Part shown: positions 44,572-60,214 of the stretch, one piece after another
Numbering within the stretch: position 1 is the first letter of the stretch
Layout: each line of letters starts with the position of its first letter
Assembly (NCBI GenBank): GCA_020445745.1
Contig: JAGRGB010000125.1
Span: 27,867 to 91,866, forward strand
From: Rhodocyclaceae bacterium
GTDB lineage: Bacteria; Pseudomonadota; Gammaproteobacteria; Burkholderiales; Rhodocyclaceae
Reading direction: 5' to 3'
DNA length: 64,000 nt
The notes under the pieces: generated by a model
Told to the model about the DNA's origin: nothing
Seen by the model: only the letters and a program-made list of their open reading frames with translations
Database searches by the model: none
Made by a program: the position numbers and the translations under genes

Positions 44572-46284
44572 GTGCCGGCGCGCGATCTCGGACACGAAGC
44601 GGCAGCAGGCCACCCGATCGAACAGGCGGCCGCACCGACCCTGTCGATCGGCGAGGCCGACCTGCGTCGCCTGGCGCGCCCCGCGTCGATCGCGATGGCG
44701 GTCGGCCTGGTGGCCTATCTGGCGACCACCTGGAGCGGCTACGGCATCGCGGAAAACGAGGCCCAGCGCCAGATCTACGGCCGCCTCGTCGCAGCTTTCC
44801 TGCGCTCCGGCATGACCGACGCAGACCTGCTGCGGCAGGCGGCGCAGATCGGCGGCGGCGGCTTGTTCGACCTTCTCGCCGCATTGCTGGAACCGGTCTG
44901 GCATGGCTCGGTATGGGACATGCGCCATCTTCTCGGCGCCAGCTTCGGGCTGGCCGGCATGCTCGCCGTGTGGCGCCTGGCGAAGCTCCTCGGCGGCGAC
45001 ACGGCGGCGCTGGCGGCGGTCGTGATCCTGACACTGACCGGTGCCTGGAGCGGCGCCTTGTTCACCCATACCGCCGAGATACCGCTGGCTGCCTGTCAGT
45101 GCTGGGCGCTCTACCTGCTGACCAGGTTGATTGCCGACCTGCCCCGGCTCGAGCCGTCGTTGGCGTTGGGCTTCGGCAGCAGCGCCGGTGCCGCGCTGGC
45201 AATCGCTGACAGCGGCTGGCTGATGCCGCTGTGCCTGACGGTGTGCCTGGCGGAGGCGGCACGCCGCGAAGGACCGGGCGGTATTGCACGATCCGGCCGC
45301 TGGCTGGGGGCATTGCTGCCCGGCATCGTGGTGGGCCTGGGACTGGTTTTGCTGGGCCGCCCGACGCTGTGGCCCGGGATCGCCGGGCCCGAGGTCGGCG
45401 CGGTGGTGCCGACCCTGGTGGACGGTCGGCTGCTGCCGAGCAGCGCGGTGCCGCGCAGCTATCTGCATGAATATCTGGTCGTCAAACTGCCGGAGCTGAT
45501 GCTGATCGGCCTCGGCCTGGCCCTCGGTGGACGACCGTGGCGCACGGCTGAGCGGCCCGACGGCATCGGCGAACGGCGCATCATGTCGCGGCGCGAGCGG
45601 CCGCTGCACCTGCCGCTGGCGCTGGCGATCGTGCTGCCGATCGCCTACGCATGGGTGATGCGGCCCGCGCTGGCCGACGGGCTGCGCCAGTTCCTGTTCC
45701 TGCTGCCTCCGCTGGCGGTCGCCGCGGCGCTGGGCTGGCGCGTATTCTGGCAGGCGCTGCGCGGCAACCCGGCGGCGGCGTGGCTGATGGCCTCGGTCGC
45801 CGGCCTGTTGGTGGCGATCCACATCACCACCCTGGTCCATCTGCAGCCCTACGGCCATACCTTCTACAACAGTCTCGCCGGCGGCCTGCGTGGCGCGGCC
45901 TACGGCTGGGTGCTCGACTACAACGGCAGTTCCCTGAGAGAGAGCGCGCAGTTCCTCGATCGCTACCTCGAAAGCGTGGCGGCAACAGGGGCAGGCGGCC
46001 GCTCGCGGCCGGTGCCGGTGCAGGTGTGTGGTGAGCCGGAGCAGGTCAGGGCGGCGATGCCGCGCTACTTCGAGCCAGGTGTCGACGCCGCGGACGCCGA
46101 ATTCCTGATCACCGCCGGCCGGCCCGGCTGCGTCGTGCCCCGCGGTGCTACAGTGATCCACACCGTGACCCGTCGCGGCACGGTGCTCGGCCAGGTGGTG
46201 GATCTTCGCACTTCCCGGCGGGGCGCGCGGTCCGCGCCAGCCGACGACTACTCGACGATCTCGGCCGGCTTGACCTCGCCGTGA
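44572..46284 (+). CDS. Polytopic GT-C/GT39-like membrane glycosyltransferase
   Basis: The 570-residue protein has about ten hydrophobic helices and an N-terminal loop with GYGIAENEAQRQIY, an arrangement like that of ArnT/PMT-type (GT-C) transferases that use lipid-linked sugars at the periplasmic face. The E-N-E pair in the loop takes the place of the DE or DD usually found. The GTG start at 44572 lies 9 bases after the glucan synthase stop, so the two are probably co-transcribed and act on the same polymer, although this is inference. Its C-terminus overlaps the convergent apbE gene by 37 bases. Confidence 0.7.
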   Translation: MPARDLGHEAAAGHPIEQAAAPTLSIGEADLRRLARPASIAMAVGLVAYLATTWSGYGIAENEAQRQIYGRLVAAFLRSGMTDADLLRQAAQIGGGGLFDLLAALLEPVWHGSVWDMRHLLGASFGLAGMLAVWRLAKLLGGDTAALAAVVILTLTGAWSGALFTHTAEIPLAACQCWALYLLTRLIADLPRLEPSLALGFGSSAGAALAIADSGWLMPLCLTVCLAEAARREGPGGIARSGRWLGALLPGIVVGLGLVLLGRPTLWPGIAGPEVGAVVPTLVDGRLLPSSAVPRSYLHEYLVVKLPELMLIGLGLALGGRPWRTAERPDGIGERRIMSRRERPLHLPLALAIVLPIAYAWVMRPALADGLRQFLFLLPPLAVAAALGWRVFWQALRGNPAAAWLMASVAGLLVAIHITTLVHLQPYGHTFYNSLAGGLRGAAYGWVLDYNGSSLRESAQFLDRYLESVAATGAGGRSRPVPVQVCGEPEQVRAAMPRYFEPGVDAADAEFLITAGRPGCVVPRGATVIHTVTRRGTVLGQVVDLRTSRRGARSAPADDYSTISAGLTSP

Positions 46285-47306
46285 TAGCTCAGGCGGCGGT
46301 GCATCGCGCTGCTGACCGTGATCCTGCCCTGATCGTCGACCCGCAACACGTGGGCGACGTCGTAGCGTCCGGCGAGGCTGGGCCAGCCGTCGTTGGCGAT
46401 GAACAGCGGCTTGCTGGCGGCATCGGACAGCGTGCCGGCGCCGGGTCGCCGGGTGACCAGCACCGTCAGCGACTGGGTGCCGCGGGCGGGACGCCCGTCG
46501 CGCGGGTCGATCAGATGGCTGTAGCGCACGCCATCGACCTCGAAATAGCGCTGGTAGTCGCCGGAGGTGCCGACCGCCTCGCCGTCGTAGAGCGGCAGCG
46601 AAGCCAGCACGCCGGCGTCACGCGGATGCTGGATGCCGATGCGCCACGGGCGATCGCCCTTCGCGCCGAGCGCCAGCACGTTGCCGCCGATGTTCACGAG
46701 GGCGTTTTCGATGCCCTTGTCGCGCAGGATGCGGGCGGCGCGATCGAGGGCGTAGCCCTTCGCGTAGCCACCCAGGTCCAGGCGCACGAAGCGGTTGCTG
46801 CTGCTTACCGTGCGGCCGTTGATCACCAGGTCGAGGATCCGCGGCCGGCGTGCCACCAGGGCTCGCACCGCGGCGGCGTCCGGGACCTTCGGCCGGAAGG
46901 TGTCGGAATGGAAACCCCACAGTTCGATGAGGCGGCCAATGGCCGGCTCGAACAGTCCGTCGCCGAGTGCCGACAGGCGTCTGGCGTCGGCCAGCAGGGT
47001 CGCCAGCTCGGCCGACACCTGATGGTGGCGACCGGCTTCGATCGCCTCGTTGAGTTCGGTCAGTTCGGACGGCTCCCATGCGTGATAGGCGCGGTGCAGG
47101 CGGTCGAACTCGCGCAGCACCGCGGCCAGCGCCTCGTTGGCGAGCTGCGGATCGTGGCCATAGACGACGACCTCGACGCGGGTGCCGAAGACGTAGGATT
47201 CCTGCCGGAACAATTCGTCGCGGGCGCAGCCGGTCAGGCAGATGATCGCCAGCAGCATGCTCAGCAGCCGACGGATGGCCGTCCACTGCTTCATGGCGCG
47301 GGCCAT
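46248..47306 (-). CDS. apbE: FAD:protein FMN transferase ApbE (lipoprotein)
   Basis: ApbE attaches FMN covalently to threonine of exported proteins such as Nqr or Rnf subunits. The 352-residue protein has a lipoprotein signal with lipobox LTGC near residue 27. It also has the family motifs SYVFGTRVEVVVYG, LDLGGYAKGYALD, NALVNIGGNVLALG and YSHLIDPRDGRPA. It should sit on the periplasmic face of the inner membrane. The ATG at 47306 follows AGGGCGG; an ATG four codons later is an alternative. It overlaps the GT-C gene at its 3' end and, at the 5' side, faces a decayed gene. Confidence 0.92.
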   Translation of the reverse strand: MARAMKQWTAIRRLLSMLLAIICLTGCARDELFRQESYVFGTRVEVVVYGHDPQLANEALAAVLREFDRLHRAYHAWEPSELTELNEAIEAGRHHQVSAELATLLADARRLSALGDGLFEPAIGRLIELWGFHSDTFRPKVPDAAAVRALVARRPRILDLVINGRTVSSSNRFVRLDLGGYAKGYALDRAARILRDKGIENALVNIGGNVLALGAKGDRPWRIGIQHPRDAGVLASLPLYDGEAVGTSGDYQRYFEVDGVRYSHLIDPRDGRPARGTQSLTVLVTRRPGAGTLSDAASKPLFIANDGWPSLAGRYDVAHVLRVDDQGRITVSSAMHRRLSYHGEVKPAEIVE

Positions 47307-51444: not shown

Positions 51445-51858
51445 TCAGGTCGTGGCGGCCTTGCGGCGAGCGCGTGCGATCGCCTCGCCGGCGTGGCGGT
51501 CGGCGCCGGCGATGTGGCCGATCAGCCAGCGCTGCAGAAACGTCGCGACGTCCTGGGGCACGACGTGACCATGATCGAGGTCGGCGACCATATGGGCGAC
51601 CTGGCGCGCCAGGCGCTGGTGCTCTTCGCGATGCTCGGCGGCGAATTCGTAGCCGTGGCGCCGCATCAGCGCCTCCTCGCGGGCAAAGTGCCACTCGGTG
51701 TAGTCGGACAGCTCCTTCAGCACGCCCATCGCGGCGACGCGATCATTGCAGTCGCTGGCCCGCTGGACACGTATCAGCAGTCCGAACAAGGTGCGGTGAT
51801 CCTCGTCCATTTCGTCGACGCCCACTTCCAGGGCGGGGTTCCACTCGTTGATCAGCAT
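51445..51858 (-). CDS. Bacteriohemerythrin
   Basis: The 137-residue four-helix protein carries all seven expected di-iron ligands: His21, His57, Glu61, His76, His80, His115 and Asp120. Bacteriohemerythrins reversibly bind O2 and serve as carriers or sensors. The ATG at 51858 has a GGAG site, and the coding frame upstream of it is not protein-like. It is the last gene of a leftward operon and starts 22 bases after the stop of the HAMP-like protein gene, which suggests that it works with the cytochrome and membrane proteins in oxygen or redox sensing. Confidence 0.93.
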   Translation of the reverse strand: MLINEWNPALEVGVDEMDEDHRTLFGLLIRVQRASDCNDRVAAMGVLKELSDYTEWHFAREEALMRRHGYEFAAEHREEHQRLARQVAHMVADLDHGHVVPQDVATFLQRWLIGHIAGADRHAGEAIARARRKAATT

Positions 51859-51880
51859 GTGGCTGGCTCCATCCCGATGC

Positions 51881-52453
51881 TCAAGTTCGATCGGCGCGCC
51901 GCCCACGCCGCAGTGCGCGGTGCGCGGCGTCGAGCAGTTCCGGGACGTCGGTGTTTCCCGGAGGCGGTGCCGAAGTCAGACGGACAGCCGCCTCGCGGGC
52001 GGCTGCCAGCCGTTGGCGTTCGCTGGCGATCCATTGCTCGGTCACCGTCAGCAGGCGGTGCGCCGGCATGTGTGCGGTGGCGGTCGTGTCCGGGCGCAGG
52101 TCGCGCGCGCGCACCCGGTCGAGGCGCTGTCGCAACGCGGCCAATACCGCGCGCACGTGACTCGACCAGATCGCGTGGGCGACCAGCAGCGCGACAGTGT
52201 TGACCAGCGCGCAGACCAGCAAGGTCCTGCCGAAGGCGGCCCCGAGGCGGGGCAGCAGCGGCGTGCGATCGGCGGCGTGGATCACGTACAGGGATTCGTC
52301 GATGATCTGTCCGAAGGCGTGGTACAGGTAGACGCATGCCAGCACCAGCAAGCCTGCCTCGAGCAGTACCAGGGCCGCCGCGAGCCGTCCCTGCAGCTGG
52401 CCATCGACGAAGACCCGGCGGCGTCTGTGACGGCGAGGGGCGGGCGTACTCAT
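51881..52453 (-). CDS. Small HAMP-like membrane signalling protein (B)
   Basis: The 190-residue protein has two hydrophobic helices, near residues 24-47 (ALVLLEAGLLVLACVYLYHA) and 75-95 (RTLLVCALVNTVALLVAHAI), with a short periplasmic loop of about 30 residues. The second is followed by a helical segment (SSHVRAVLAALRQRLDRVRARDL) resembling a HAMP linker, and then a charged helical tail (about 125-190). It has no kinase, methylation or cyclase domain. It overlaps the cytochrome gene by four bases (ATGA at 52450-52453), so synthesis is coupled. It probably relays the cytochrome's redox state to a partner. Confidence 0.7.
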   Translation of the reverse strand: MSTPAPRRHRRRRVFVDGQLQGRLAAALVLLEAGLLVLACVYLYHAFGQIIDESLYVIHAADRTPLLPRLGAAFGRTLLVCALVNTVALLVAHAIWSSHVRAVLAALRQRLDRVRARDLRPDTTATAHMPAHRLLTVTEQWIASERQRLAAAREAAVRLTSAPPPGNTDVPELLDAAHRALRRGRRADRT

Positions 52454-53229
52454 AGGTCGTGACACTCCAGGCACAGACTCCGGCCCCGCGCTGCAACCTG
52501 GACCACCGCGCCGTGCCGTCCGCTGTAGCCGCTGTGGCAGGAAATGCAGCTCACCAGGCCGCCGGGCAGCTCGATCGCGCGGTCGAGCGCCGCGCGATCG
52601 CGAAAGCCGCCGTAGCCGCTGGCCTTGAGGTAATCGACACCGACCGGATGGTTGATGCCGCTGCCGCGGTGGCGGGTGTTGGCGGCGCCGGCCACCTCGA
52701 CCTGGGCATCGCCGCGCTCGCCGTGGCAGTCCATGCACTGGGCAGTGTAGGGATCGAGCAGCGCCGGCTGGCCGGCGAGGCCGACCGCGTCGAGATGGCC
52801 CGATACCGCCAGCGAGCGACCGCCATCGGCCATCCGCTGGAAGAAGCTGTCGCGGTGGCAGGCGAGGCAGAAGTCGCGGTGGCGCTTGTCGCCGCGAAGC
52901 CCACCATGGTGTCGGCCGTGGATTTCGTGGCAGGAACTGCAGGTCAATTCGCCCTTCCAGTCGAGGGGGTAGTCGGCCACCGCCGTCATGCTCGGGCGCA
53001 CGCCGGTGGGATGACTGGCTACCGCTGCGCGCGGATGGCAGCTCGCGCACAGCCTCTCCTGGCTGGCCTGCAGGACCCGGGCGGTCGATGCCTCGACTGC
53101 ACCGGAGCTGACGTGGCAGTCGGCACAGTCGCCGCCGGCCAGCGGATCCCGAGGCGCGCGATCGGCGACCGCCACGATCGCCAGGGTGGCGAACAGACAG
53201 GCTGCGGCAAGGTAGCGAGTGGCGGTCAT
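52450..53229 (-). CDS. Seven-heme periplasmic c-type cytochrome
   Basis: The 259-residue product has a signal peptide (residues 1-22) and seven CxxCH heme-binding motifs, starting at residues 35, 61, 97, 121, 165, 228 and 253. Several histidine pairs (for example HGRHH near 104) may act as distal ligands, as in doubled-CxxCH/NapC-like multiheme proteins. It should be a periplasmic electron carrier or redox sensor. It is translationally coupled to HAMP-like membrane protein genes on both sides (ATGA overlaps at 53226-53229 and 52450-52453), an unusual arrangement. Confidence 0.93.
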   Translation of the reverse strand: MTATRYLAAACLFATLAIVAVADRAPRDPLAGGDCADCHVSSGAVEASTARVLQASQERLCASCHPRAAVASHPTGVRPSMTAVADYPLDWKGELTCSSCHEIHGRHHGGLRGDKRHRDFCLACHRDSFFQRMADGGRSLAVSGHLDAVGLAGQPALLDPYTAQCMDCHGERGDAQVEVAGAANTRHRGSGINHPVGVDYLKASGYGGFRDRAALDRAIELPGGLVSCISCHSGYSGRHGAVVQVAARGRSLCLECHDL

Positions 53230-53750
53230 AGCGTGAACGCGTCGGTCAGGCTGACGAGGCGCTGGCCCGCAGCAGCGACGGCCTCGCGGTCGCCGTTGCG
53301 CAACCGGTGGGCGGCGTCGTCGACGGTGGCACTGATTTCGTCCTGACGCCGGTAGAGATCAGCGACCGTCTCCTCCAGGTAGCGCGCGTCCTCCTGGGCC
53401 CGATCGCTGGCGCGCACCCGGATCGGGGGCACTTCACCGTCGCGTATCCCCTGCTCGAGGTCGATGCAGAAGCGATACAACGGGCCGGCGACGCGAAAGC
53501 TGCTGTACAGCGCGATCAGCCAGGTGGTCAGCGCGGTGCCGAGCACCAGCAGCAGGCTGGTGACCGCCATCAGGCCGGGCAAGCGTGCGCGGCTTGCGCT
53601 CAGCGTCTGGATCATCGCGACGTAGTCGCCGTCCACCGGCCGTGCCAGCAGCAGCACGCCGACGAGTCCGGCCGTCGCCAGCACGGCAAAAAGAAGCGAG
53701 ATCCGACCGATCAGTTCGAACTGACCGGCACGCGGAGAAGCATCGGGCAT
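53226..53750 (-). CDS. Small HAMP-like membrane signalling protein (A)
   Basis: The 174-residue protein opens the operon. It has two helices (about 16-35 and 57-82) with a periplasmic loop of about 20 residues. A HAMP-like linker of the form FRVAGPLYRFCIDLEQGIRD follows, with the conserved glycine-proline and downstream L-x-x-G pattern, and then a helical charged tail ending in LTDAFTL. No catalytic output domain is present. The stop overlaps the cytochrome start (ATGA). Signal transduction across the membrane by dimer rearrangement is plausible, but the receiving partner is not encoded here. Confidence 0.7.
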   Translation of the reverse strand: MPDASPRAGQFELIGRISLLFAVLATAGLVGVLLLARPVDGDYVAMIQTLSASRARLPGLMAVTSLLLVLGTALTTWLIALYSSFRVAGPLYRFCIDLEQGIRDGEVPPIRVRASDRAQEDARYLEETVADLYRRQDEISATVDDAAHRLRNGDREAVAAAGQRLVSLTDAFTL

Positions 53751-57634: not shown

Positions 57635-60214
57635 TCAGGGCGCGCCGGGTGCAAGGGCGGCGGCGATGTCGGCAGTCGGGCGCATGACGTGGAAACCCTG
57701 CGCCAGATCGATGCCCTGGGCGACGACCTGGGCCATCACCAGCTCGTCCTCGACATGCTCGGCGATCGTGCGGATGCCGAGGTCGCTGGCGAGCGCCGCG
57801 ATGCTGCGCACCAGCGCGCGGTCCTTCTCGTTCGAACGCATGCCGAGAACGTAGCCGCCCTCGATCTTCAGGTAGTCGATCGGCAGGCGCTTGACGTAGT
57901 GGAACGACGAGAAGCCGGAGCCGAAGTTGTGGATCGCGAGCTTGAAGCCCTCACCGTGCAGGCGCGCCACGAAGCGTTCCAGCACCGACATGTTGCGCAC
58001 CGTCTCGCGCTCGGCGATTTCCAGCACGATGCGCGACGGATCGACATTGAAATCGTCGGCGATGCTGCGGATCTCGCCGACGAATTCGTCCACCTGCATC
58101 GCGCGCGGCGACAGGTTGAGGAAGATCACGCCCTCGTAGCCGCTGTTCTCGATCGCGTAGAGCGCCTGCTCCATCAGCATGTAGTCGAGCTTGTGCATCA
58201 CCCCCATGCGCTCGGCGGCCGCGACGTATTCCTCGGCCAGCACGTGGTCGCCGTTGGCCAATCGGATCCGCGACAGCACCTGCAAGGCCTCGACTGCGCC
58301 GTCCCGGGTGCGAACGATGGGCTGGAAATACGGCACCACCGCGCGCCGGTCGACCGCCTGCAGGATCATCATGCTCTGTTCGCCGAGCTTCTTGAAGATG
58401 TCGACGACATCCTCCTCGGTCGGCACCGCGACCTTCGAGTCGCCGCCGCCCTTCGCCCGGTACATCATGCTGTCAGAGAACATGAAGAGGTCCTTGGCGA
58501 CCGTGGCGTGGGTCGGGTAGCAGCCGATGCCGATCGAAGCGGAGCTGCGCAACGGACTGCCGTCCGGCGTGTCGACCGACAGCTCGGCGATTCTCGCGGC
58601 GACCCGACGGGCCACCTCGACGGCACCGGCGAGATCCGTTTCCGGCAGGATCACGACGAACTCATCGCCGCCGTAGCGCGCCGGCATGTCGTCGTCGCGG
58701 ATCGCGCCGCGCAGGGTGTCGGCAAAGCACTGCAGATAGGTGTCGCCGAAACCGTGTCCGTAGCGATCGTTGATCGATTTGAAGCCGTCGGTGTCGACCA
58801 CCAGCAGGGCAAATGCATAGTTGTGGCGGGCCGAACGGTGGATCTCGTTCTCCAGCACCTCCCAGAACACCCGCTGGTTGTAGAAGTTGGTCAGCGGGTC
58901 ACGGGTCGCGTAGTACTCGAGATCCTTGGTGTAGCGGTCGATCGCCTTGACCGATCCGACCACGTTGAGCAGGGTCGACAGCACGCTCTCGATGACCAGC
59001 ACATGGGTCGGTTCGACATCGCCCTGGGCCTCCATGCCGATGCCGACAATGCCGCCGATCCGCGGCGCGTCCACCAGCAGCGACTTGCTCTGCAGCGCGA
59101 CGGCATCGCCGGTGATTTCCGGCATCGGCTGGCCGTGGTCCGCGACGTGGTGATTGACACGCATTGCATAGCCGGCATCGAAGTAGTCGGTGCGCTTCAG
59201 CTCGTCGCGCAGCCGGCGCTCGAAGTCCTCCTTCATCTCGTTGTTCGGCGAGAAGCGCCAGAACACCTCCAGGTCGAAGGCGTCGTCACCGGTCTTGAAG
59301 ATCGAGAACAGGGCGTAGGCCGGCATCACGCCGTCGATGTCGAGCAGCAGCCGGATCACGTAGTCGCGCCAGTCGCGGATCACGTCCGAGGTCAGCACGA
59401 ATTTCTCGAGCAGGCGGATCTCGAACTCGAGCATGTCCTTGTCCACGGCGATGCTGCGCACCCGGCTGGTAAGTTCGCCGATCTCGCGCGACACCGGGTC
59501 GAACTCGGCAAAGCCTAGGCTCGGCGGACTGTCTTCGAGCTTGCGCAGGTCGGCGAGCCGATTGACCGAGCGGATGCTGCCGGCGAGTTCGACGATCGCC
59601 CCTTCGAAGCGCCGTCGGATGAAGACGACCATCATCAAGGTCGCCAGCACCGCGACCGGTGCCAGCGGAATCATCGCGATGGCGAAGGTCAACTGGTGGG
59701 CCTCGAGCACCGGGGCGATGTTCTGGCGGACGTCGATGACCCCGAGCACGTCGCCGATTTCGACATTGGTGTGACAACCCTGGCACACTTCCTGGGCCTT
59801 CAGTGCATAGAGGTAGCGGACCCTGCCGTCCTGCTCGAAGCTGCGCGAGTGCCCTTCGCGGAACACCTGTTCGATCGCCTCGTCCGGCTCGCGCTGGGGA
59901 ATCTCGCCGAACAGCACCGATACCCGGTTGCCACGATAGATGTCGATCTGCCGGCGGCTTTCCTTTATCGAAGACTGGATCGCGGCGATGAAGCCTTCGA
60001 GCTGCTGTCGGCTCCAGCCCGTTCTCATCAACTGGAACATCGACTTGAAGGTGATCTCGGCGAAACTCTCGGCATCGGCCAGAGCCTCCTTGCGCAAAGA
60101 TCTTTCGAACAGGAAAGACACGGCGAAGTGCGTGGTCGCGACGATCACGCTGGAGAACAGCACGGCGGCGATCAGCAGCACGCCGCGAATGGTTTTGGTA
60201 CCGGGAATCTTCAT
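57635..60214 (-). CDS. GGDEF-EAL protein with a periplasmic c-type heme motif
   Basis: The 859-residue inner-membrane protein has a helix at about 10-32, a periplasmic domain to about 172 with a heme-attachment motif CQGCH (residues 144-148) near its end, a second helix (about 175-199) and a HAMP-like linker. A GAF-like central region (about 250-430) follows, then a GGDEF domain with the active-site GGDEF intact near residue 515, and an EAL domain from about 620. In the EAL domain the catalytic DDFG becomes HNFG (near 761), and KxD becomes KIEGG, so hydrolase activity is probably lost. It likely makes cyclic di-GMP under redox or gas control. Confidence 0.9.
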   Translation of the reverse strand: MKIPGTKTIRGVLLIAAVLFSSVIVATTHFAVSFLFERSLRKEALADAESFAEITFKSMFQLMRTGWSRQQLEGFIAAIQSSIKESRRQIDIYRGNRVSVLFGEIPQREPDEAIEQVFREGHSRSFEQDGRVRYLYALKAQEVCQGCHTNVEIGDVLGVIDVRQNIAPVLEAHQLTFAIAMIPLAPVAVLATLMMVVFIRRRFEGAIVELAGSIRSVNRLADLRKLEDSPPSLGFAEFDPVSREIGELTSRVRSIAVDKDMLEFEIRLLEKFVLTSDVIRDWRDYVIRLLLDIDGVMPAYALFSIFKTGDDAFDLEVFWRFSPNNEMKEDFERRLRDELKRTDYFDAGYAMRVNHHVADHGQPMPEITGDAVALQSKSLLVDAPRIGGIVGIGMEAQGDVEPTHVLVIESVLSTLLNVVGSVKAIDRYTKDLEYYATRDPLTNFYNQRVFWEVLENEIHRSARHNYAFALLVVDTDGFKSINDRYGHGFGDTYLQCFADTLRGAIRDDDMPARYGGDEFVVILPETDLAGAVEVARRVAARIAELSVDTPDGSPLRSSASIGIGCYPTHATVAKDLFMFSDSMMYRAKGGGDSKVAVPTEEDVVDIFKKLGEQSMMILQAVDRRAVVPYFQPIVRTRDGAVEALQVLSRIRLANGDHVLAEEYVAAAERMGVMHKLDYMLMEQALYAIENSGYEGVIFLNLSPRAMQVDEFVGEIRSIADDFNVDPSRIVLEIAERETVRNMSVLERFVARLHGEGFKLAIHNFGSGFSSFHYVKRLPIDYLKIEGGYVLGMRSNEKDRALVRSIAALASDLGIRTIAEHVEDELVMAQVVAQGIDLAQGFHVMRPTADIAAALAPGAP

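Follow-up and report, generated by a model that had tools for sequence, protein, structure and literature searches.

A seven-heme cytochrome gene set between two HAMP-like membrane protein genes: a candidate redox receptor assembled in trans

Introduction

Why would a bacterium place the gene for a seven-heme cytochrome between the genes for two small membrane proteins that resemble HAMP signal relays and carry no output domain of their own? We examine this question in a window of 64,000 nucleotides (by which we mean the whole stretch of DNA analysed) from a Rhodocyclaceae bacterium (GenBank assembly GCA_020445745.1, contig JAGRGB010000125.1, positions 27,867 to 91,866 of the forward strand). 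Here, four leftward genes encode in order a HAMP-like membrane protein (which we call TM1), a periplasmic cytochrome with seven CXXCH motifs, a second HAMP-like membrane protein (TM2) and a bacteriohemerythrin. The original prediction, made from the letters of the window, treated these four genes as one unit in which the cytochrome serves as sensor in trans, the HAMP pieces pass a redox signal across the membrane and the hemerythrin is an O2- or iron-linked partner. We find that the first three genes (the trio) are conserved together across phylum boundaries and that both membrane proteins trace back to HAMP proteins, and we propose, with a probability of roughly 0.45, that the trio is a redox receptor in trans, in which the HAMP pair would signal to enzymes of cyclic di-GMP (c-di-GMP) metabolism. 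The question bears on how extracellularly respiring bacteria monitor whether their electron conduits are reduced or oxidized and carry this into decisions on biofilm and motility. The trio is a defined, three-gene and genetically testable candidate for this role, and it offers a naturally occurring example of output-less HAMP proteins.

Results

The conserved unit has three genes

The genes at the center of this study are:

53226..53750, minus strand: TM1, 174 residues, two membrane helices, no output domain, and a cytoplasmic part that is HAMP-like but degenerate.
52450..53229, minus strand: heptaheme c-type cytochrome, periplasmic, of doubled-CXXCH / c3-c7-like type, 259 residues, with seven CXXCH motifs and at least seven other histidines.
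51881..52453, minus strand: TM2, 190 residues, two membrane helices, HAMP-derived, with a periplasmic YxxH (Y56, H59), without output domain.
51445..51858, minus strand: bacteriohemerythrin, 137 residues counted from its ATG, adjoining the trio in this genus only.

The originally described layout is reproduced to the base: the cytochrome gene shares a 4-bp ATGA overlap with its neighbor at either end (53226-53229 and 52450-52453), and 22 bp separate TM2 from the hemerythrin gene. The main test set for the original prediction was whether this order extends beyond close relatives. We find that it extends far beyond them, with a TM1-cytochrome-TM2 trio at 52 loci (at one of which, L024, the cytochrome frame is broken) in Rhodocyclaceae, in other Pseudomonadota and in the phylum of locus L025, which is labelled Myxococcota. 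At these loci a TM1 homologue lies directly upstream of the cytochrome on the same strand, at a spacing that ranges from an overlap to a gap of 86 bp, and a TM2 homologue lies downstream (2.1 kb away in the case of L174). TM2 was assigned automatically at 51 of the 52, that of L010 being seen in a separate neighbor scan, and some of the loci end at contig ends. Identity to the window proteins falls as low as 15% for TM1 and 12% for TM2; because the three-gene order is kept at such low identity at 52 loci, it is not a matter of chance.

A search with the cytochrome alone reaches every one of the 52 trio loci. Across genome samples that overlap in part, the cytochrome is found in 6 of 61 relatives (the window genome, four of the five other genomes of its genus, and G022), in 5 of 369 genomes of the class (one a partial match), in 18 of 398 genomes of the phylum, and in 23 of 395 genomes of the L025 phylum at 138 bits or more, where the next match scores 77 bits. 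One cytochrome scan yielded 14 loci, which include Rhodocyclaceae metagenome-assembled genomes (MAGs), Sulfurimicrobium, Noviherbaspirillum denitrificans, one Magnetococcales, and one gammaproteobacterial and one deltaproteobacterial MAG. The cytochrome tree divides, with good support, into the L025-phylum set (23 rows) and the Pseudomonadota set (28 rows). Within it the window genus is one supported clade; for the 15 other-class rows of the phylum, the tree does not establish a single clade. The three proteins diverge in step, their pairwise distances correlating across 47 loci (r of 0.92-0.94, with shared species history uncontrolled).

Among the cytochromes examined, those of L186, L223 and L143 stand without TM1 and TM2. 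The first (L023/L186:1714-3774) is a second copy, from a Magnetococcales genome in which a full trio (L127) is present as well, and it is preceded by a hemerythrin-like gene and, by sequence inspection, a sulfatase-modifying-type gene. On plasmid pGSUB1 of Geoalkalibacter subterraneus (L223:11427-14426) a divergent heptaheme cytochrome lies between two PilZ-domain proteins, with a GGDEF-EAL gene about 10 kb away. L143 has five hemes and scores 123 bits. Our counts leave out L144 (partial, with three hemes) and the partial matches L026-L031. In the gammaproteobacterial MAG of L024 (L024:7896-8690) stops break the cytochrome frame and TM1 and TM2 are open, which could be decay or an assembly error.

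The fourth gene does not belong to the conserved unit. The window hemerythrin scores 109.1 bits against the NCBIfam bacteriohemerythrin model NF033749 (cut-off 84), and it adjoins the trio at all five trio loci of the window genus. This adjacency is confined to that genus. What is conserved is therefore a three-part unit, and the four-part unit of the original prediction is ruled out as a conserved one.

The membrane proteins trace back to HAMP proteins

Both TM1 and TM2 contain two hydrophobic helices, connected by a short loop. That they are HAMP-like, as had been claimed for them, is borne out at the level of descent even though the Pfam HAMP family misses both window proteins: neither reaches the gathering score of PF00672, and neither matches HAMP at E values up to 0.1. 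In the wider families, HAMP is the commonest Pfam match at that same limit (9 of 48 TM1 and 13 of 46 TM2). We compare TM1 and TM2 profiles with a profile of 29 HAMP segments from the window's own genome, using reversed and shuffled profiles as controls. The L025-phylum set matches this HAMP profile with E values of 8e-13 (TM1) and 3e-14 (TM2), and the TM1 of the Pseudomonadota set with 2e-6, all with controls at 0.011 or worse; TM1 of the window genus by itself gives 1.6e-4, with a reversed control of 0.005. Within the L025-phylum set TM1 and TM2 are paralogous (E of 7.5e-24, profile against profile), and profile links join the Pseudomonadota families to those of the L025 phylum for both TM1 (5e-21) and TM2 (1.5e-16). 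This chain of profile comparisons supports a two-helix HAMP ancestry for both membrane proteins. On the window side the direct link is limited to TM1, and there to profile comparison; TM2 is connected to HAMP through the chain of its relatives alone.

Comparison with solved structures follows a similar pattern. The TM2 profile (46 rows, L025-phylum rows included) finds chemoreceptors, the transducer HtrII, NarQ and Af1503, with a best E of 3e-8, and the TM1 profile finds mostly coiled coils and one chemoreceptor (E of 0.03). AlphaFold monomer models consist of a helix, a long helix that joins a transmembrane segment to AS1, a connector of 14-17 residues and an AS2-like helix. In the window, TM1 has cytoplasmic HAMP-like positions (R86-V-A-G-P90 ... 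R113..D116), and several residues are held closely across the families: among 51 TM1 sequences G89 is present in all, Y43 and P90 in 49, A88 in 47, D116 in 45 and R113 in 43, and among 50 TM2 sequences Q21 is present in all and Y56 and H59 in 44 each.

The TM1 profile, when used in the class search, also returns small two-helix HAMP proteins without output domain (L066-L082, some on short contigs), several of which have an FQ motif ahead of the first helix; by sequence inspection, those of L069 and L073 adjoin type IV pilin-like genes. No multiheme gene lies in their available flanks, except for a 4-heme frame 3.7 kb off in L077, and so the membrane proteins of the trio seem to belong, as one branch, to a wider family of orphan HAMP proteins. 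We considered a loop histidine as the mark of cytochrome-partnered HAMP proteins and rejected it, as several of the orphan proteins carry one too.

The cytochrome keeps its hemes and their likely ligands

In the window cytochrome an N-terminal hydrophobic segment precedes seven CXXCH motifs, which start at residues 35, 61, 97, 121, 165, 228 and 253. It belongs to Pfam PF09699 (doubled-CXXCH) with 68.4 bits against a gathering score of 20.6. Assignment to the NrfH-type membrane cytochromes (NCBIfam TIGR03153) is rejected, the match being local only, with 22.7 bits against a curated cut-off of 134.2. All seven motifs are kept in each of the 51 intact cytochromes of the trio set, a group that has the motif YPLDWKGELTC. 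Every one of the 51 also has at least seven histidines outside the motifs: positions 73, 104, 145 and 194 are histidine throughout, 187 in 48, 29 in 44 and 239 in 36. With this many in every sequence, six-coordinate hemes and electron exchange seem likelier than gas binding. The seven cytochromes that lack H29 are the five of the window genus and those of L063 and L182. His108 is exclusive to the five genus members, L063 and L182 being without it, and the change from H29 to His108 in the genus looks like a swap of ligands.

The preservation of H59 in most TM2 sequences raises the possibility that this residue completes a heme of the cytochrome in trans. The idea is weakened by the internal histidines, at least seven in all 51 cytochromes, and these make it more likely that H59 is a docking residue.

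Signalling and electron-transfer genes near the trio

We now consider what lies around the trio. In 15 trio genomes of the same phylum outside the class (the Magnetococcales MAG included), we searched with the c-heme sensor domain of a protein at L130, which we take to be of the GSU0582/GSU0935 kind discussed below; this protein, the sole one of its type run against Pfam, has Mcp40H-20_sensor, HAMP, PAS and GGDEF domains. The domain has 48 matches in the 15 genomes, between one and six per genome, and it occurs within 7 kb of the trio in eight of them (0.19 expected) and within 2 kb in four (0.08 expected). Under independent random placement the eight co-locations have a P of about 3e-12, a value that is too small, since the genomes are related and are treated as independent; the calculation also ignores contig ends. 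The sensor is fused to GGDEF in seven of the eight genomes, and in the eighth (G555) the gene is cut by a contig end. It is placed divergently from TM1 in G532, G555, G473 and G492, downstream on the other strand in G484 and G582, and farther upstream in G457 and G467. GGDEF genes also stand directly beside the trio on the same strand at L063 (49 bp) and L182 (4 bp), and at L011 a phosphonate-binding-type protein and a GGDEF protein lie downstream.

Two further features of the window are relevant here:

57635..60214, minus strand: 859-residue protein with one N-terminal CQGCH and C-terminal GGDEF and EAL domains, a possible signalling partner.
46248-47306: ApbE (flavin transferase) gene by Pfam, about 4 kb downstream of the hemerythrin gene.

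The CQGCH gene is on the same strand as TM1 and 3.9 kb upstream of it, and it has this spacing at the four genus loci with enough flank. Its protein is present in all five trio genomes of the genus and is absent, like the trio, from G003. In that genome (L224:3355-8166) gshB is followed by a different GGDEF-EAL-like protein (by sequence inspection) and then an apbE-like gene; the place after gshB is without the trio, the hemerythrin and the genes between them and apbE. In Noviherbaspirillum (L022:6299-7324), an ApbE-like gene (again by sequence inspection) lies 10 bp upstream of TM1, and a FixG-type ferredoxin lies downstream.

Two gammaproteobacterial loci (L064:552-4949 and L065:8043-13110) have a transducer, a porin, a 4-heme cytochrome and a two-helix HAMP protein on one strand. 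The porin is putative, by sequence inspection and without a Pfam match, and the transducer is a methyl-accepting chemotaxis protein (MCP) with a C-terminal hemerythrin at L064 and a PAS-GGDEF-EAL protein at L065. This gene row looks like a simpler relative of the trio.

Discussion

A model for a receptor assembled in trans

In the reading that we favor, TM1 and TM2, two-helix HAMP-derived proteins without output, would form the membrane part of the receptor. Since hardly any locus lacks either of them, they probably do so as a hetero-oligomer. The seven-heme cytochrome would dock on their short periplasmic loops and in this way replace the sensor domain that a normal chemoreceptor has in the same chain. 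Its hemes, probably bis-His, would equilibrate with periplasmic or extracellular electron-transfer proteins, so that the charge state of the cytochrome would report electron supply or the availability of acceptors. Altered docking would then shift the HAMP helices, and partner transducers in the cytoplasm, most likely c-di-GMP enzymes, would read the signal. The candidate partner in the window is the CQGCH-bearing GGDEF-EAL protein, and the hemerythrin may be a local O2- or iron-linked accessory.

Weighing the explanations

The trio combines components of signal-relay origin with one of electron-transfer origin, and its neighborhood favors the former role in some lineages and the latter in others. 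Several results weigh against a receptor. Neither Pfam nor NCBIfam finds an output domain in TM1 or TM2 (as the original prediction had said), and HAMP is degenerate in the window clade: TM2 does not match the HAMP profile (E of 0.04 for the genus, 0.01 for the Pseudomonadota set), and the TM1 and TM2 profiles of the Pseudomonadota set do not match each other (0.05). The monomer models of TM1 and TM2 are of moderate confidence (mean predicted local distance difference test, pLDDT, 74 and 77; predicted template modelling score, pTM, 0.43 and 0.53), and Foldseek finds no PDB match for them at E of 0.001 or better. GGDEF genes number from 19 to at least 62 per trio-bearing Pseudomonadota genome, so the single adjacencies at L063, L182 and L011 prove little; the CQGCH GGDEF-EAL protein occurs without the trio in 10 other genera (E < 1e-70, 61 genomes); and the significance of the c-heme sensor co-location is overstated. 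The diguanylate cyclase link that the original prediction suggested looking for is seen in one genome set and largely missing from another, as 18 of the 23 L025-phylum loci have no GGDEF, EAL or MCP-type gene within the available flank. The flanks of that phylum point instead to electron transfer. Counting cytochromes of at least four hemes within 7 kb (flanks range from 0 to 13 kb per locus), we find one at 21 of its 23 trio loci, often of 4-, 11- and 13-heme kinds and often 11-heme together with 4-heme, and the L025 flank carries NHL and pyrroloquinoline quinone (PQQ)-type propellers. The main rival is accordingly an inner-membrane electron-transfer unit, in which TM1 and TM2 would anchor the cytochrome, possibly with a quinol site between them, pass electrons to or from larger multiheme conduits of the periplasm and outer membrane, and reuse the HAMP fold as a structural dimer. 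Beyond the flanks, the seven CXXCH motifs with at least seven other histidines fit bis-His carriers, the loss of H29 together with the genus His108 resembles an exchange of ligands, and the HAMP signature decays in the Pseudomonadota set, where the cytochrome, loop residues and gene order stay. However, no histidine reaches 70% conservation in the membrane helices, as heme b would need, a cytochrome of at least four hemes is near none of the 15 trio loci of the other-class set and only 3 of 14 other Pseudomonadota loci (some short-flanked), and both the signal-relay descent and the enrichment of c-heme sensor and GGDEF genes are unexpected for a simple carrier. We regard this rival as less likely than the receptor reading, though the strongest of those considered. 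If it were correct, the trio would serve multiheme conduits as their partner at the inner membrane, and the HAMP scaffold would have been put to use outside signalling.

A more modest role, in which TM1 and TM2 simply hold the cytochrome at the inner membrane or help it mature there, with neither signalling nor catalysis, would account for the tight gene overlaps in the window and the co-inheritance of the three genes, and among the neighbors listed no single further one is common to all loci. Two HAMP-derived proteins seem excessive for a tether, though, and the conserved cytoplasmic positions of TM1 (A88, G89, P90, R113, D116) suggest that a cytoplasmic function has been kept, and we think this role improbable. 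Sensing of O2 or NO by the four genes together, with hemerythrin functioning as one of the core subunits, is less probable still. It draws on the adjacency at all five genus trio loci and on hemerythrin-like sequences near L132, near the lone cytochrome of L186/L023 and in the L064 operon, but the window hemerythrin used as a query finds matches at only 2 of 42 loci scanned, one of them (L186) without TM1 and TM2, and the c-hemes look six-coordinate. Of all these readings, the one that best accommodates both the signalling and the electron-transfer evidence is a receptor in trans that would report on the state of an electron-transfer chain.

Comparison with known systems

Literature searches, which covered sources without their supplements, return no description of the trio. 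The nearest multiheme settings are the Uet (PMC10734462) and Oet (PMC10553843) clusters, which in the available part of those papers resemble the L025-phylum trios in combining multiheme cytochromes with NHL proteins. HAMP is absent from the main text of PMC10553843 and of PMC5371394, and in the available text of PMC10734462 it appears only in the row of a c-di-GMP protein and in an author name. PMC10553843 describes, in the part available, periplasmic cytochromes of 7-8 hemes that may have a specific partner. Unlike Uet and Oet, most Pseudomonadota trios lie outside such clusters. The trio cytochrome is by Pfam a member of the doubled-CXXCH / cytochrome c3-c7 family, within which it forms a distinct heptaheme group with its own motif and near-constant TM1 and TM2 neighbors.

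For the membrane proteins, Af1503 of Archaeoglobus fulgidus is a transmembrane HAMP protein without typical input or output domains, according to the available text of PMC3585426. The TM2 profile matches Af1503 chains weakly (best E of 0.006), whereas TM1 and TM2 of the window fall below Pfam recognition of HAMP. We know of no cytochrome partner of Af1503. The division of labor has a parallel in sensory rhodopsin II and HtrII (the latter matched by the TM2 profile), where, in the partial descriptions available, sensor and HAMP transducer are likewise separate polypeptides of one complex. HtrII bears its own chemotaxis output domain and its sensor is a membrane rhodopsin, both unlike the trio.

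Closest in chemistry are the c-heme sensor domains of the DUF3365/Tll0287 family (GSU0582/GSU0935), which the available part of a preprint (PMC12889525) names sCache_heme; target 2 of that preprint has two membrane helices and a cytoplasmic HAMP. As described there, these proteins are like the trio in coupling a periplasmic, covalently bound c-heme through membrane helices to HAMP, and unlike it in having heme sensor and HAMP in one polypeptide, with one heme and a Cache fold. The trio has its seven hemes in a polypeptide of their own, and its HAMP-derived proteins number two. To our knowledge, c-heme sensors are single-heme domains inside one chain. We tentatively suggest, as a possibility less secure than the receptor reading itself, that the trio represents an undescribed class of transmembrane redox receptor, in which a multiheme cytochrome of electron transfer would be the exchangeable sensor of a heteromeric, output-less HAMP pair that would link electron flow, whether extracellular or periplasmic, directly to c-di-GMP in more than one phylum.

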